Origin: Candidatus Roseilinea sp.
GTDB lineage: Bacteria; Chloroflexota; Anaerolineae; J036; Brachytrichaceae
Reading direction: 5' to 3'
DNA: 64,000 bases
Assembly (NCBI GenBank): GCA_026003755.1
Contig: BPHV01000001.1
Location: forward strand, 372,001 to 436,000
Made by a program: the position numbers and the translations under genes. Shown piece after piece: positions 17,512 through 24,293 of this stretch. The notes under the pieces were generated by a model. It saw nothing but the letters and a program-made list of their open reading frames with translations, did no database searches and was not told the origin of the DNA. Each line of letters begins with the position of its first letter. The first letter of the stretch is position 1.

Positions 17512-17841
17512 TTACGACGGCAGCAGGCCGCGTGGGCCTTCATCGGCCGAGCCGCGCGCGTCGGGGTTTTCGTCGTCGAAACCGCCCTCCCCGAGCCAGG
17601 CATCAATGCGCGCTTGCTCGCGCCCGGCGTCGTATCCAACGGCGAACATGGTCTTACACAGCGCGCGAATGGTGATCTCGAACGCTTCGCGGGCGTCTTC
17701 CTTGGCAAAGTTCCAGGCGCGTTCCTCGCCTTGGAGTTGGAGGCGATCCACGTGCTCCATGATTTCGGGATCCACCAGCTCTTCAAGGGGGGTGTCTCCC
17801 AGCACGTTCTCCAGCCATTTGGCGAAGTCAGATTGAGTCAT
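17512..17841 (-). CDS. Small acidic protein of unknown function
   Basis: 109 residues, largely helical and acidic (TQSDFAKWLENVLGD, LEELVDPEIMEHVDRLQLQG), ending in a disordered Asp/Gly-rich tail. No motif or family was recognised and there is no signal or membrane segment. Codon use matches its neighbours. It is convergent with the alpha/beta hydrolase and about 30 bases downstream of the permease-MenA gene, with which it may be co-transcribed. Confidence 0.6.
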   Translation of the reverse strand: MTQSDFAKWLENVLGDTPLEELVDPEIMEHVDRLQLQGEERAWNFAKEDAREAFEITIRALCKTMFAVGYDAGREQARIDAWLGEGGFDDENPDARGSADEGPRGLLPS

Positions 17842-17870: not shown

Positions 17871-19574
17871 CTAGTATACAAGCCGGCCCACCATCGCGCC
17901 GACGAAGCCGAGGATCAACAGCCAGCCGAACCAGCCGTGCAAGCGGGCGGTGGCGCGCAGCACACGATTCAGCTTGCGCGGCTCATCGGTGGCGTATGCA
18001 CGTTGAACGAGCGAGATGCCCATCGGCATGACCAACAGCGGCAACAACGCCAACAGCGGCGCATAGCCGATCACCACTAACACTACCAGGACGACGAAGC
18101 TCCCGCTCACCAGCACCAGATACTCCCATTTGCTGGCCTGCCGCCCCAAGATGTTTGCCAGGGTGCGCTTATTCCTGGCCAGGTCGCCTTCCAGATCACG
18201 CATGTTGTTGGCATGGAGGATCGCCGCGACGAGGAAGCCGATGGGCAGCGAGAGCAGCACCCCATGCAGCGGCGCTGCCTGCGCTTGGACGTAGTAGCTG
18301 CCGATGACCATCACCGGCCCCATGAAGACGAACACCACGATCTCACCCAGGCCGATATAGGCGAAGGCTTTGGGGCCGGCGGTATAAAACCAACCGGCGA
18401 GGACGCTCAAGATGCCCAGCATCAGGATGAACGCGCCGCGCACTGCGACCAGATACAGGCCGATGAGCGAGCCCACGCCGAAGCAGACCAGCGCGCCGAC
18501 GAACACCTGCCGCGGCGTGAGCATGCCTTCTTGCAGTGCGCGATTCGGGCCAAGCGACTCGGGCGTATCCGCGCCCTTCTTCCAGTCGAAGTAGTCGTTG
18601 GCGAGGTTCGTGCCGGCATGGATGAGCACCGAGCCGATCAGCGTGAGTGCGAACAGCCACAGGTCGAAGTAGCCGTCGTAGGCCGCTAGCACTGCGCCGA
18701 GCGTCACCGGCACCAGGCTGGCTGTGAAGCTAAACGGACGCGTCGCCATCCACCACACCCGCACGAAGCGGCGGATGCGCGGTTCACGTTGCACAGCCGG
18801 CGCCCGCGCTGTAGCCCGATTGGCGTCGGCCAGGCGCCACGGCACCAGTTGTCGCTCCACCTCGCCCATCAGCCAGTTTGCGCCGAAGCCGAGCAGCGCC
18901 ACCACGATGAGCGCCGCGAAGATGGTCGGGAGGTCGTACACCTGATAGGCTGCCCAGATCATTGCGCCCAGGCCGCCCTGTGGCAGCAACAGCTCGGTGC
19001 CGACGATGACGGTGAGCGCAAAACCCAGGCCGAGGTTGACGCCGGTGAGGATGCTCGGCAGCGCGCCGGGCAGCGCCACCGTCCAGATCAAGTCCCACTT
19101 GCTCGCGCCGTTGTTGCGGGCGATGTCGAAGTAGCGCGGGTCCACGTTCCGCACACCGGCCACCGTGTTGAGCACGACCAGGAAGAACACCGAGACCACC
19201 ACGATGGCGTACTTGGCCGGCTCGCCGATGCCCAGCAGCAGCACGACCACGGGCACCAGCGCGATCTTGGGAACAGGATAGAGGGCTGCGACCAGCGGCG
19301 TGAAGAGCGCGCGGGCGATGCCGCTCACGCCCATCACCACGCCGAGCAGGATGGCCGGCGCGGTCGCCAGCACGAAGCCCACCGCCACGCGGCGCAGGGT
19401 GATCGCTGTGTGGGTGAGCAGCGTGCCATCTTGCAGCAACGCCATCAGCCGCGCGAAGATCTCGCTGGGCATCGAGAAGAAGCGCGAATCGAGCGCGCCA
19501 AGGCGCGCCAGCGCTTCCCACAGCGCCAGCAACACCAGCGGCGACACCAACGTCAACCCACGCTCTCGTGCCAT
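17871..19574 (-). CDS. ABC transporter permease fused to a MenA-type (UbiA) prenyltransferase
   Basis: One open frame of ~567 residues. Residues ~1-245 form a NitT/TauT-type ABC permease with about six membrane helices and the ATPase-contact loop IARNNGASKWDLIWTVALPG (~151-170). After a ~25-residue basic linker, residues ~272-567 form a UbiA-family prenyltransferase with both Asp-rich motifs: NDYFDWKKGAD (326-336) and NNMRDLEGDLARNK. The second half best matches 1,4-dihydroxy-2-naphthoate polyprenyltransferase (menaquinone synthesis). I know of no standard reason for this fusion. A lost stop codon between formerly separate genes, or a missing base, is the simple alternative. No partner ATPase or binding protein is adjacent. 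Start ATG 19574; GTG 19613 is possible. Confidence 0.8.
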   Translation of the reverse strand: MARERGLTLVSPLVLLALWEALARLGALDSRFFSMPSEIFARLMALLQDGTLLTHTAITLRRVAVGFVLATAPAILLGVVMGVSGIARALFTPLVAALYPVPKIALVPVVVLLLGIGEPAKYAIVVVSVFFLVVLNTVAGVRNVDPRYFDIARNNGASKWDLIWTVALPGALPSILTGVNLGLGFALTVIVGTELLLPQGGLGAMIWAAYQVYDLPTIFAALIVVALLGFGANWLMGEVERQLVPWRLADANRATARAPAVQREPRIRRFVRVWWMATRPFSFTASLVPVTLGAVLAAYDGYFDLWLFALTLIGSVLIHAGTNLANDYFDWKKGADTPESLGPNRALQEGMLTPRQVFVGALVCFGVGSLIGLYLVAVRGAFILMLGILSVLAGWFYTAGPKAFAYIGLGEIVVFVFMGPVMVIGSYYVQAQAAPLHGVLLSLPIGFLVAAILHANNMRDLEGDLARNKRTLANILGRQASKWEYLVLVSGSFVVLVVLVVIGYAPLLALLPLLVMPMGISLVQRAYATDEPRKLNRVLRATARLHGWFGWLLILGFVGAMVGRLVY

Positions 19575-19641
19575 ATCTCCAAACCGGTCTTCGGCGTAGA
19601 CTATAGCCGGCACAGATAAGGCGTCGCTAAGCGCCGGCGCG

Positions 19642-21084
19642 TCAACCGTATTTCACATATACGGTCTTCGTCCGCGTATAGAACTCCATCGCCGCCCGGC
19701 CCTGCTCCTTGAAGGTATTGGCGCTGCTGCCCTTGAAACCACCAAATGGCGCCTGCAAAGCGACGCCGGTCGTCGGCTCGTTCACCTTCACCACGCCGGC
19801 CTCGATGCGATCGGCGAAGCGCATCGCCTTGTTGAGGTCGTTCGTGACGATGCTGGCCGATAGGCCGAAGCCGATGCCGTTCGCTTTGGCCACCGCATCA
19901 TCGAAGTCTTTAGCCCGGATGACGCCGATCACCGGCCCAAAGATCTCCTCTTGTGCGATGCGCATCCCGGGTTCGACATCCTCGAACACAGTGGGCCGGA
20001 TGAAAAAGCCGGCGCCGGTCGGGATCGGCTCGCCACCGACCAGCAGCTTCGCGCCTTCGCCCTTGCCGATGCCAACATACTCCAGGTCGGTTTGCAACTG
20101 CTCGGCGCTCACTGCCGGGCCCATCTGCACGCCGCTCTCCAGTCCATTGCCCACCTTCAGGTTGCGCGCGGCTTCAACCAGCGCCTGGGTGAATGCATCG
20201 GCCACCTTCTCTTCCACGATGACGCGGCTGGTGGCGGTGCACGCCTGCCCCGTAAGTCCGAAGCCGCCGCGCACGGCGATGTCCACGGCCAACGGGATGT
20301 TGGCGTCGTTGAGCACAATGGTGGGGTTCTTGCCGCCCATCTCCAACTGAGTGCGCACCAGGTTGCGCGCCGTCTTCTCGTAGATCTTGACGCCGACAGC
20401 GTACGAGCCGGTGAAGCTGAGGCCGGCGATCTCTTTGCTTTCAGCCAACGTATTGCCCACTGCGCTGCCGCTGCCGACGACGAGGTTAATCACCCCCGGC
20501 GGCAGCCCGGCCTCAATCAAAATCTCGACCAGCTTGAGCGCCGTGTGGGGCACCAGCGAAGCAGGCTTGAACACCACCGTATTGCCGTAGGCCAGGGCCG
20601 GCGCAATCTTCCACGCCGGAATGGCAATCGGGAAGTTCCACGGGGTGATGACGGCGATGACGCCCAGCGCCTCACGCTTGGTGAACAGCAGCGTGTCCGG
20701 CGTATTGGCCGGGATGACATCGCCACCGGCGCGAAAGCCCTCGCCAGCGTAATACTTGAAGATGTCTCGGGCGCGCGTCACCTCGGCTTTGGCTTCGGCC
20801 AGCGTCTTGCCTTCCTCGCGGGTGAGCGTCTCGGCCAGCTCATCGGCGCGTGCGGCGATGAGCTGGCCGGCTTTGTCGAGGACGGCCGCGCGGCTCGGCC
20901 CTGGCAGCGCGGCCCACTTCGGCAGCGCTTCTTTGGCCGCCGCAATGGCGCGTCTCGTGTCCTCAGCAGTCGCCGAAGCGAAATACCCGATCACCTCGCC
21001 GGTCGCCGGGTTGATGTTCTCGATCGTTTTACCGTCGGATGCGCCGACCCATTCGCCGGCAATGTAGTTTTTGAAGATAGACAT
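19642..21084 (-). CDS. NAD(P)-dependent aldehyde dehydrogenase
   Basis: 480 residues, full length for the ALDH superfamily. It shows NYIAGEWV at the N-terminus, WNFPIAIPAWKIAPAL, the Rossmann segment VGSGSAVGNTL, LEMGGKNPTIV (general-base Glu), GLTGQACTATSRV (catalytic Cys) and EEIFGPVIGVI. The closest recognisable subgroup is 2,5-dioxovalerate (alpha-ketoglutarate semialdehyde)/succinate-semialdehyde dehydrogenase-like enzymes. Such a role would fit with the sugar-acid dehydratase UxaA two genes away, but the substrate is inferred. ATG 21084 gives the family-typical start; the open frame upstream is Arg-rich and not protein-like. About 290 bases upstream carry no gene. Confidence 0.88.
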   Translation of the reverse strand: MSIFKNYIAGEWVGASDGKTIENINPATGEVIGYFASATAEDTRRAIAAAKEALPKWAALPGPSRAAVLDKAGQLIAARADELAETLTREEGKTLAEAKAEVTRARDIFKYYAGEGFRAGGDVIPANTPDTLLFTKREALGVIAVITPWNFPIAIPAWKIAPALAYGNTVVFKPASLVPHTALKLVEILIEAGLPPGVINLVVGSGSAVGNTLAESKEIAGLSFTGSYAVGVKIYEKTARNLVRTQLEMGGKNPTIVLNDANIPLAVDIAVRGGFGLTGQACTATSRVIVEEKVADAFTQALVEAARNLKVGNGLESGVQMGPAVSAEQLQTDLEYVGIGKGEGAKLLVGGEPIPTGAGFFIRPTVFEDVEPGMRIAQEEIFGPVIGVIRAKDFDDAVAKANGIGFGLSASIVTNDLNKAMRFADRIEAGVVKVNEPTTGVALQAPFGGFKGSSANTFKEQGRAAMEFYTRTKTVYVKYG

Positions 21085-21372
21085 GGCTCTAAAGGACCAG
21101 GATGTGAAGTGTGAAGCGCGATGCGCAAACGCGCATCGTCGCCGGACTGCCGTCGCAGCCCTGCAATCGGCGAAAGCGATGCCGACGTAGGGCTGAGCCA
21201 GAACGAATCCTCGCGCAACGCAATTATCCACCATCCAGGGTCGCCCTGAGACGCAAGCGCGATTCACACATTGGCAAACCAACGGCCAACATCCGGGCGC
21301 GAGCGCGCACGCCAATCGTGCACAGGCCCCAAGGCGCAGCCGCAACGAGGCCGGCGACCGCGACGCTTTCGC

Positions 21373-21726
21373 CTAGGCCATCATCGTCCGAATGCGCGCA
21401 TGGACTACGCGGCGCAATTCACGTAGGCGAGATTCAAACTCTGGGTCGCCATCGTCGGCCAGCGCCTCCGGCGACCAATCATGGCAATCGGCCAGGTGCA
21501 ACAGCACACCGGCAGCCTGCGCCCGCATCTCCCGATTCACGCTGCGCCGCTCCAGCAGCTCCAGCAGCGTCCAGCCTGACACAAGCAACGTTGTGCGCTC
21601 GCGCAGCGACTGCCAGAACGCGCCGGTTCGGCCAAATCGGCGCTCGTGAATCAGCGCGTGCAAGTCCGCAATGCTTAGGCCGTCATAATACGCGCGCTCC
21701 GCGCGCGCCTCAGACTCAAATTCCAT
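21373..21726 (-). CDS. Hypothetical helical protein
   Basis: 117 residues, mostly helical, with no recognised motif. It begins MEFESEARAERAYYDGLSIADL and contains an amphipathic stretch LRELRRVVHARIRTMMA at the end. No signal peptide or membrane helix. It lies between the aldehyde dehydrogenase and UxaA genes on the same strand. ATG 21726 was chosen over GTG 21732; there is no clear ribosome-binding site. The function is unknown. Confidence 0.5.
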   Translation of the reverse strand: MEFESEARAERAYYDGLSIADLHALIHERRFGRTGAFWQSLRERTTLLVSGWTLLELLERRSVNREMRAQAAGVLLHLADCHDWSPEALADDGDPEFESRLRELRRVVHARIRTMMA

Positions 21727-21772
21727 ACACACGTCGCCACGGCTGAGACGCAGCCGGTGCAGTTGGCCGACC

Positions 21773-23440
21773 TTAAAGAATCCCCCCCAAGTTCCACGGC
21801 TGGAACTCTTCTTCGCCGATGCCTTGCGCTTCGCTCTTGGAGGGCTTGCCGGATGCCACCGCGATCACATAGTCTAGCAGCTCATCGGCCACCGCCTGCA
21901 TCGGCACACCCTCCAGCACTTTGCCGGCGTTGATGTCCATATCCTCTTCCATGCGCCGGTAAGTCGCGCTGTTGCTGACCACTTTGATGCTGGGCGCCGG
22001 TTTGAACCCAAAGCACGAGCCGCGGCCGGTAGTGAACACAATCAGGTTGCAACCGCCGGCCACCTGCCCCGTGGCGCCCACCGGGTCATACCCTGGCGTG
22101 TCCATGAAGGTGAAGCCTTTTTGCGTGATCGGCTCGGCATAGTCCACCACGTCCACCAGCGGCGTCGTGCCCGCTTTGGCCACCGCGCCGAGCGACTTCT
22201 CGTAGATCGTAGTTAAGCCGCCGGCTTTGTTGCCATGCGATGGATTGTTGTCTATCTCCACGCCATGTTTGGCGGCGTGCTGCTCCCACCAGTGGATCTT
22301 GCGGATGAGCTTCTCGCCCACTTCGCGGCTCACGGCGCGGCGCGTGAGCAAGTGCTCGGCACCGTAGATTTCGGGCGTCTCGGCCAACACCACGCTGCCG
22401 CCCTGCCGGACGATCTCATCAGAGACCATGCCCAACACCGGGTTCGCCGTCACGCCGCTCCAGCCGTCGCTGCCGCCACACTGCAACGCGACGGTCAGCT
22501 CGCTGATCGGCGTCGGCTCGCGCCGATACTGATTGACGACCGGCAACAACGCCTCCACCATCGCAATGCCGGCCTCGATGGTCTTGCGCACGCCGCCGGT
22601 ATCCTGGATGGTGAGCGAGGGCGGCGCAAGGCGTGGCGCGCCGGCCATAGTGGGCTGAGGATTCACGGAGCGCATGGCCGGCGCTTCTTTGATGGCGAGG
22701 TGATAGTTCTCAACCAGCGCGCCGATCTGGTTGACCTCGCACCCCAAACCCACAAGCACATAGCCGCCGACGTTAGGATGCGCGGCGATGCCGGCCAGCG
22801 TGCGCTGCAGCAGGATGTAGTCCTCGCCGCCGACGCGCGTGGCGCAGCCGAAGCCATGGGCAATGGCAATGACACCATCTACGTTCGGGAAATCGGACAG
22901 CCGCTCTGCGGTGAAATGGTGGGCGATGCGTCGCACCGTATGTGCGGAGCAGTTCACCGTGCCAATTACCGCGATGTAGTTGCGCGTGCCCACGCGGCCG
23001 TCGGCGCGGCGATAGCCCATGAACCGCCGGCGCTCCCCTTCCGGCACCAACGCCACCGGCCTGACGTCGGCCCCAAAGGCGTAATCCTGATCGAATCGCG
23101 TTTGTAGAGATACACGATCGCGCGTTTCGACGCCCACGGCCAGGTTGTGCACGTGCACGTGGTCGCCCAGCGCAATATCACAGGTCGCAAAGCCGATCAC
23201 CTGGCCGTAGCGCCGCACCGGCCGGCCTTGCTTCACCTCGCGGATGGCGAACTTATGGCCGGAAGGGATTAACACGGGGAGTCGCAGCGACGCGCCGTGG
23301 CGCGTGCCTAGGATGGTTGTGCCGGCAGCCAGATTCACCTTCGCAATCGCCACGTCGTCGTCGGGATGCAACTGAACGGCGACATCGTCGAAAGGCAAGG
23401 GATTCGGTTCAGGCGGGGAGAGCAGATCAATCGTGGTCAT
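21773..23440 (-). CDS. uxaA: UxaA-family sugar-acid dehydratase (altronate dehydratase)
   Basis: About 555 residues. An N-terminal SAF domain (HPDDDVAIAKVNLAAGTTI) is followed by the large UxaA/GarD catalytic part with YRRADGRVGTRNYIAVIGTVNCSAHT, GCEVNQIGAL, LQCGGSDGWSGVTANP and GRGSCFGFKPAPSIKV. These iron-dependent enzymes dehydrate altronate (or galactarate) to 2-keto-3-deoxy acids in hexuronate catabolism. The two parts are one polypeptide here, as in most UxaA. The downstream alpha-ketoglutarate-semialdehyde-like dehydrogenase could act in a linked sugar-acid route; that is inference. The start overlaps the upstream hydrolase gene by 14 bases. Confidence 0.85.
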   Translation of the reverse strand: MTTIDLLSPPEPNPLPFDDVAVQLHPDDDVAIAKVNLAAGTTILGTRHGASLRLPVLIPSGHKFAIREVKQGRPVRRYGQVIGFATCDIALGDHVHVHNLAVGVETRDRVSLQTRFDQDYAFGADVRPVALVPEGERRRFMGYRRADGRVGTRNYIAVIGTVNCSAHTVRRIAHHFTAERLSDFPNVDGVIAIAHGFGCATRVGGEDYILLQRTLAGIAAHPNVGGYVLVGLGCEVNQIGALVENYHLAIKEAPAMRSVNPQPTMAGAPRLAPPSLTIQDTGGVRKTIEAGIAMVEALLPVVNQYRREPTPISELTVALQCGGSDGWSGVTANPVLGMVSDEIVRQGGSVVLAETPEIYGAEHLLTRRAVSREVGEKLIRKIHWWEQHAAKHGVEIDNNPSHGNKAGGLTTIYEKSLGAVAKAGTTPLVDVVDYAEPITQKGFTFMDTPGYDPVGATGQVAGGCNLIVFTTGRGSCFGFKPAPSIKVVSNSATYRRMEEDMDINAGKVLEGVPMQAVADELLDYVIAVASGKPSKSEAQGIGEEEFQPWNLGGIL

Positions 23441-24293
23441 CACGGAGGAAGTTTTTGACTATTCGCGCGAATTCATCCGTCTTTTCGACCATCGGCAGGT
23501 GGCCGCATGCGTCAATCCAAACCAGCTTGCCGCGCCGGGCAAGGCCGGCGGTGTGTTCTGCGTTGCGCGGCGGCATGATTTGGTCGTTGCGACAGTGGAT
23601 CAGCAAGACCGGCATCGGCAACCGCGCCAAATCGTGCGGCGTCTCCCAGCTCAATGACGCCTTCACCGTCAGGTCGGCCGTCCGCTCATCCATCTGCATA
23701 AAGTCGTTCAGGCCATCGCGCAGCACGGCGATGTCATCGGGCAAGCGATGGAAGTAGCGACGGCCCAGCAGCTTCGCAAATCCATCGCTCGCAGCGCATG
23801 GGAGCTTACGCGCTTTGACGAGCAGGCCGGTCACGCTGTGCATGAACGCGATCATGCGACGCTCACGCTCATCGCGGAACGTGCTGAAATTGCTGATGAT
23901 CAGCCTTCGCACGCGGGCCGGCTGCATGGCCGCCAGCGCGATCGCCACACCGGAGCCATAGCTGTGCCCGACTATGTCGCACTGCGTGAGGCCGATCGCA
24001 TCCATGAACTCCAGGACGATGGACGCCAACCCGCGATGGGAATGGGCGTCTGGACCGTCAGGGTTATTCGCAGCGAGTTGAGGCGGCGAGAATCCAAAGC
24101 CGGGCAGATCGGGCGCATAGCAGCAAAACGCATCCGCCAGCGCGCGCATCACGGGCAACCAGTAGCGCGACGCGCCGCCCCAGCCATGAATGAACAACAG
24201 CGGTGGAAGCGATGACGATCCGGCTTGACGGTAAGCCAGCTTGCCGCAGCGCAGGGGAGCAACATCGTAACCGTCGTTGCTTCGCAGATGCAT
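23427..24293 (-). CDS. Alpha/beta-fold hydrolase
   Basis: About 288 residues. FIHGWGGASRYWLPV (oxyanion), PDLPGFGFSPP, nucleophile elbow VGHSYGSGVAIALAA, acid in HCRNDQIMP and histidine in DACGHLPMVEK are all intact, so it should be an active serine hydrolase. The substrate is unknown. It overlaps uxaA by 14 bases, so the two are probably translated together; a sugar lactone or ester could link them. The frame remains open upstream to 24443, but ATG 24293 (or 24317) gives a usual family N-terminus. The gene is divergent from spoVS. Confidence 0.75.
   Translation of the reverse strand: MHLRSNDGYDVAPLRCGKLAYRQAGSSSLPPLLFIHGWGGASRYWLPVMRALADAFCCYAPDLPGFGFSPPQLAANNPDGPDAHSHRGLASIVLEFMDAIGLTQCDIVGHSYGSGVAIALAAMQPARVRRLIISNFSTFRDERERRMIAFMHSVTGLLVKARKLPCAASDGFAKLLGRRYFHRLPDDIAVLRDGLNDFMQMDERTADLTVKASLSWETPHDLARLPMPVLLIHCRNDQIMPPRNAEHTAGLARRGKLVWIDACGHLPMVEKTDEFARIVKNFLRDDHD

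Follow-up and report, generated by a model that had tools for sequence, protein, structure and literature searches.

A NitT/TauT-type importer permease fused to a MenA-type prenyltransferase in Chloroflexota: a candidate uptake system for a menaquinone precursor

A 64,000-nucleotide stretch of a Candidatus Roseilinea sp. genome (assembly GCA_026003755.1, contig BPHV01000001.1, positions 372,001 to 436,000; here called the window) carries a gene that joins two membrane proteins of known families in one reading frame: the permease of a NitT/TauT-type ATP-binding cassette (ABC) importer and a MenA-type prenyltransferase of the UbiA family. The product is probably an importer subunit for 1,4-dihydroxy-2-naphthoate (DHNA) or a closely related naphthoate, and the attached MenA would prenylate the compound on its arrival. 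The same fusion is found at full length in 26 distinct Chloroflexota genomes.

In the proposed mechanism, the gene product would be the transmembrane subunit of the importer and would carry a working MenA at its C-terminus, with an NMT1-like lipoprotein as substrate-binding protein (SBP) and an ATPase as its partners. Neighbouring microbes would release DHNA or a close naphthoate, the SBP would pass it to the permease, and ATP would drive its movement inward. The attached MenA would prenylate the naphthoate at the cytoplasmic face of the membrane and so trap it as demethylmenaquinone, which MenG would methylate to menaquinone. The host would then be a scavenger of quinone precursors. The original prediction, made from the sequence of the window alone, had raised the coupling of precursor uptake to menaquinone synthesis as one possibility. 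This idea has gained support from the operon context, from the absence of the upstream pathway and from the link between menA and a second transporter; we infer the substrate, the direction of import (from the presence of an SBP) and the coupling between uptake and prenylation.

The single open frame lies on the minus strand and runs from a GTG at 19613 or an ATG at 19574 (Met14) to a stop codon at 17871-17873. The ATG is the likelier start because conservation among the aligned relatives begins at about Met14, and residue numbers given here count from the GTG. The Pfam domain BPD_transp_1 is found at residues 87-254 (83.9 bits, cut-off 26.4) and UbiA at residues 300-552 (147.5 bits, cut-off 34.2), and the Asp residues of both Asp-rich motifs are retained across all fused relatives aligned. 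The original prediction of an uninterrupted frame joining a NitT/TauT-type permease to a UbiA-family enzyme with both Asp motifs is thereby borne out. The fusion passes the NCBIfam model TIGR00751 for menA (185.8 vs a cut-off of 102.15) and narrowly fails to reach the equivalog PRK06080.1-3 (249.5 vs 264). Scores for the specific NCBIfam permease equivalogs are below cut-off for TauC (128.5 vs 342), SsuC (109.5 vs 347) and ntrB (95.7 vs 209.05). The EAA loop of ABC importers is their contact with the ATPase, and the permease half is, as judged from its domain, EAA loop, predicted fold and cognate SBP and ATPase, a NitT/TauT-type ABC importer permease.

An AlphaFold2 model of the fusion built from a 62-sequence alignment has a mean pLDDT of 93.5 and a pTM of 0.62, the latter leaving the relative placement of the two domains open. 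An earlier model from 11 sequences (pLDDT 58.8) was discarded. The permease half of the model matches CmpB (Z 24.3) and NrtB (Z 23.5) over 240-244 residues, and the MenA half matches UBIAD1 (Z 28.4). ABC importer permeases of this size have a cytoplasmic C-terminus, and UbiA enzymes start in the cytoplasm and open their active site toward the cytoplasmic side. The fusion is topologically sensible because the end of the permease, the start of the UbiA domain and its active-site opening would all be cytoplasmic.

The full-length fusion occurs in 12 of 41 whole genomes: every one of the nine from the window's genus, those of two further genera in its family and one from a different family. When named genomes were scanned, the fusion turned up at 22 Chloroflexota loci with 45-97% identity, including Candidatus Roseilinea, Thermoflexales, Caldilineaceae and Litorilinea, and at full length nowhere outside Chloroflexota. 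The 26 distinct genomes combine the whole-genome set, the scan and one further genome after removal of duplicates. In separate trees of the permease and MenA halves, the 26 fused sequences fall on one side of a branch with 98% bootstrap in each, and a single fusion event fits the trees of both halves. No reversion to split genes is seen among the relatives in these trees. Within the genus, dN/dS is 0.06-0.09 for the MenA half, 0.08-0.26 for the permease half and 0.16-0.85 for the linker; purifying selection is acting on both halves. A sequencing or assembly artefact, or a stop codon lost by accident in a single strain, would be an alternative with a negligible probability: no point was found in its favour, independent assemblies carry the same fusion and dN/dS is well below 1 in both halves, so an indel or missed stop is ruled out. 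The original prediction had left room for an accidental read-through and asked if relatives would all have separate genes. The read-through is refuted, and chance or an indel excluded, by the 26 genomes from several families that carry the fusion at full length, apparently from one event and with low dN/dS in both halves.

The fused permease has apparent partners in the same genomes. Outside the window's genus, the order SBP, ATPase, fusion is found in 10 genomes and ATPase, fusion in 13. G034, of family f11, has a pair of SBP genes, then an ATPase gene and then the fusion, and in the G171 operon a gene for a VOC-fold protein lies between those for SBP and ATPase. In the window's own genome (G000) the SBP and ATPase form a pair 33 kb from the fusion (G000:C1:355215-356971). 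The pair is also distant from the fusion in other members of the genus, where the SBP of G005 is broken by contig ends. The SBP and ATPase of the genus are 45-47% and 58-61% identical, respectively, to their G034 counterparts, and the pair has no adjoining permease of its kind. In a search of 31 genomes, SBPs of more than 40% identity were found only in genomes with the fusion. The fusion is, on sequence grounds, part of an ABC importer with an NMT1-like SBP and an ATPase. The NMT1-like SBP was also considered for a role with thiamine or flavin, and this was rejected, as the eight loci searched held no TPP or FMN riboswitch; cobalamin riboswitches were likewise not found in these loci. Adjoining the pair in G000 are bchX, bchY and bchZ (L053 12724-17735), all above NCBIfam cut-offs, with homologues in G002 and none in the loci examined of other genus members. 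Their position is consistent with the phototrophy reported for Roseilinea.

The fusion genomes lack recognizable early genes of menaquinone synthesis. MenD is below cut-off in 25 of the 26, as is MenB; the MenD-bearing sister genomes tested are above cut-off for both. MqnA/MqnD (PF02621) are missing from the 14 fusion genomes covered by that search (all but G258-G265 and G267-G270), apart from a family fragment at the edge of a contig in a single member of the genus (G005:C166:6-467). The late steps are kept, with MenG in 23 of the 26 genomes (G171, G261 and G269 have none over cut-off) and a separate menA-menG pair in the fusion genomes checked. In G000, MenG stands directly behind a canonical MenA, which passes the equivalog cut-off and groups in the tree with MenA of MenD-bearing relatives. 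Genomes of the same family that bear MenD have no fusion (G010, G011, G013, G016, G017 and G021), and some are congeners of fusion-bearing G009. These patterns suggest that the fusion-bearing group has lost the early steps in the synthesis of menaquinone (vitamin K2). Their gene set is the one found in bacteria whose DHNA auxotrophy has been proven by experiment. Growth tests showed a DHNA requirement in Porphyromonas pasteri, which has menA and menG without the upstream men genes (PMC9704088), and Streptococcus agalactiae forms demethylmenaquinone from DHNA with menA alone (PMC6030563).

A second NitT-type transporter, unfused, stands beside menA or menG in other Anaerolineae. In family f28 (G084, G051 and G111) a standalone menA comes immediately after an unfused permease gene, which is itself preceded by genes for the ATPase and the SBP; on the short G051 contig the SBP is not seen. 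Six f27 genomes and one f53 genome have an SBP-ATPase-permease set that converges on a neighbouring menA, beyond which menG lies in the f27 loci. In g8 (G015 and G020) the permease of the second set is next to menG. In the tree, those unfused permeases that were included group separately from the fused ones, as a clade of their own. Every genome with an unfused set by menA or menG is without MenD and MqnA/D, and in the three f27 genomes examined that do have MenD, no permease of this type lies 4 kb or less from menA. Across 85 standalone menA loci, a NitT-type permease lies within 4 kb at 10 of 50 loci in genomes without MenD and Mqn vs 0 of 35 with MenD (Fisher p = 0.004). The search for the two halves as adjacent separate genes, called for at the outset, thus gave a positive answer, and the link of the transporter to menA is strengthened because such separate genes exist in other families. 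The menA-adjacent transporter is strong context rather than a formal test.

It is rather improbable that the importer's cargo has nothing to do with quinones and that the halves work independently, MenA having been attached for the sake of its location or dosage or kept by neutral retention. The permease half does resemble transporters of taurine, sulfonate, nitrate and bicarbonate, and the linker is loose, as would suit independent halves. Against this, one fusion has been maintained across families with no split back, and the second permease clade is linked to menA or menG solely in genomes without MenD and Mqn.

Import of a naphthoate for prenylation also has to be weighed against several observations that speak against it. 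The solved SBPs closest to that of the fusion system are proteins for taurine, nitrate or bicarbonate, or their ligand is not stated. The association of the fusion with MenD status in the class sample has p = 0.07 and is weak once relatedness is considered. The p value for adjacency to menA ignores phylogeny, and the f27, f28 and f53 loci were chosen for examination once one of them had been spotted. Anaerolinea sp. CH2 (G268) has the fusion together with MenD and MenB, the sole such fusion genome. Because of the second, canonical MenA in the fusion genomes checked, the fused copy is not the sole candidate to act on DHNA. No NitT permease is linked to 40 of the menA loci in genomes without MenD and Mqn (e.g., L113, L186 and L225), and an undescribed endogenous route to DHNA may exist. 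The exception in Anaerolinea sp. CH2 (L096; G268:C221:35235-37802) could be true or could be bin contamination.

Two of these points bear on other explanations. With two MenA-type enzymes together in the fusion genomes, the same machine could instead take up and prenylate another aromatic acceptor (1,4-dihydroxy-6-naphthoate, menadione-like naphthoquinones or a benzoquinone precursor) for a second quinone, leaving menaquinone to the canonical MenA. The fused half would suit such a role in that it falls narrowly under the PRK06080.1-3 cut-off, forms its own group in the tree and has UBIAD1 as its closest solved relative by sequence. However, it passes the menA cut-off of TIGR00751, and in the tree it is placed with MenA proteins, including E. 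coli MenA and those from MenD-bearing genomes, with E. coli UbiA and CyoE outside the set; the menaquinone route is also the only one known to be broken upstream. Another acceptor is therefore unlikely. The other explanation is that DHNA is made by an unknown route and that the fusion is an extra salvage system or a regulator, with MenA as a quinone sensor gating uptake, somewhat like UBIAD1-HMGCR. It would account for the many Anaerolineae that have MenA, lack MenD and MqnA/D and show no linked importer, and for the recurrence of a VOC-fold protein and an alpha/beta hydrolase near these genes. No evidence for such a route was found, and the catalytic Asp residues are fully retained, which would be needless in a pure sensor; this explanation is very improbable. 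Uptake of DHNA or a close naphthoate by the fused importer is nevertheless not a general answer in the class, because 40 loci go without a linked permease, and other scavenging or synthesis routes may exist in these Anaerolineae.

The fusion can be compared with several known systems. NitT/TauT importers such as E. coli TauABC and cyanobacterial NrtBCD and CmpBCD share its permease fold, EAA loop, NMT1-like SBP, ATPase and operon layout, and the fusion differs from them by the enzyme on the permease C-terminus and by scoring under the TauC, SsuC and NtrB models. MenA, the DHNA polyprenyltransferase of the UbiA superfamily, shares both Asp motifs, TIGR00751, tree position and fold, whereas the fused copy is attached to a transporter, lies outside any men cluster and comes in addition to a canonical menA-menG pair in another part of the genome. 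UBIAD1, the animal MK-4 synthase, prenylates a naphthoquinone taken up from outside. It has the same motif layout and 27% identity in the Foldseek alignment, and unlike the fusion it is a single-domain eukaryotic protein without an importer. In tauABCD of E. coli, the importer genes are directly followed by the gene for an enzyme acting on the imported compound (taurine dioxygenase), although TauD is a separate protein. As in the fusion genomes, MenA is kept (with MenG in P. pasteri), upstream men genes are lost and exogenous DHNA is used in P. pasteri, S. agalactiae and Lactiplantibacillus plantarum; no importer is identified there in the accessible parts of the three reports (PMC9704088, PMC6030563, PMC10746273).

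Both domains belong to known families, and the architecture and the proposed task are new relative to the literature searched: a search of open-access papers by direct terms gave no mention of a DHNA importer, and no description of a permease::MenA fusion was found. More tentatively, the fusion could well be the first DHNA importer, one in which the prenyltransferase is part of the transporter subunit and uptake and lipid attachment make up a single vectorial step, with an unfused NitT-type counterpart recruited for that task in other Anaerolineae. There are documented cases of quinone cross-feeding among bacteria of the mouth, the gut and food, and the fusion names a candidate for the importer, with the unfused counterpart as an independent gene set for testing DHNA uptake. 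The genes are of high interest in that they bring DHNA uptake within reach of a test. If the proposal is right, an ABC importer subunit would have a built-in lipid-modifying enzyme, and mostly uncultured Chloroflexota, including the phototrophic Candidatus Roseilinea, would rely on neighbours for their quinone. Addition of DHNA would then be a practical hint for culturing fusion-bearing Chloroflexota.

Table 1. Positions of the fusion gene and its parts in the window, and of the unfused transporter genes in other loci
Feature	Position	Strand	Extent and basis
Fusion gene, ABC permease::MenA-type prenyltransferase	17871..19574	-	567 aa from ATG 19574; 580 aa from GTG 19613
NitT/TauT-type ABC importer transmembrane domain	18834..19574	-	residues 14-260; BPD_transp_1, CmpB/NrtB structure match, dN/dS
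EAA-type loop DIARNNGASKWDLIWTVALPGAL	19059..19127	-	residues 163-185; pattern and position kept in alignment of fused and single permeases
Linker	18762..18833	-	residues 261-284; sequence and length variable among aligned relatives
MenA-type UbiA prenyltransferase domain	17874..18761	-	residues 285-580; Pfam UbiA, TIGR00751, UBIAD1 structure match, dN/dS
First Asp-rich motif NDYFDWKKGAD	18567..18599	-	residues 339-349; alignment
Second Asp-rich motif NNMRDLEGDLARNKRT	18162..18209	-	residues 469-484; alignment
Unfused SBP2, ATP2, P2 set by menA (f27, f28, f53)	L173 8072-12465; L170 7788-12014; L105 7361-10825; L180 8723-12186		
Permease of unfused set by menG (G015, G020)	L171 9296-10774; L172 8666-10262		

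Upstream of the fusion in the window, on the same strand, are genes for a 2,5-dioxovalerate dehydrogenase-like aldehyde dehydrogenase and a galactarate dehydratase-like protein (19642-23443), at a gap of 28 bp if the GTG is the start. An operon of the fusion with these two genes was considered and set aside, as the order is confined to the genus and other families have the SBP and ATPase there. Directly downstream, a 109-aa protein (17512-17841) that matches no known Pfam or NCBIfam family is retained in most genus members. A VOC/glyoxalase-fold protein recurs near these systems (L056 18216-19810, L034 9842-12361 and L111 9841-10584). Together with an alpha/beta hydrolase it was considered as an obligatory partner and rejected, the VOC protein being absent in G009, G012 and G034. 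In several members of the window's genus it lies about 8-10 kb from the SBP/ATPase pair, and in g8 its gene is lined up with those for an alpha/beta hydrolase and a MenA-like protein. The VOC-fold protein may be an enzyme that acts on the precursor after import.
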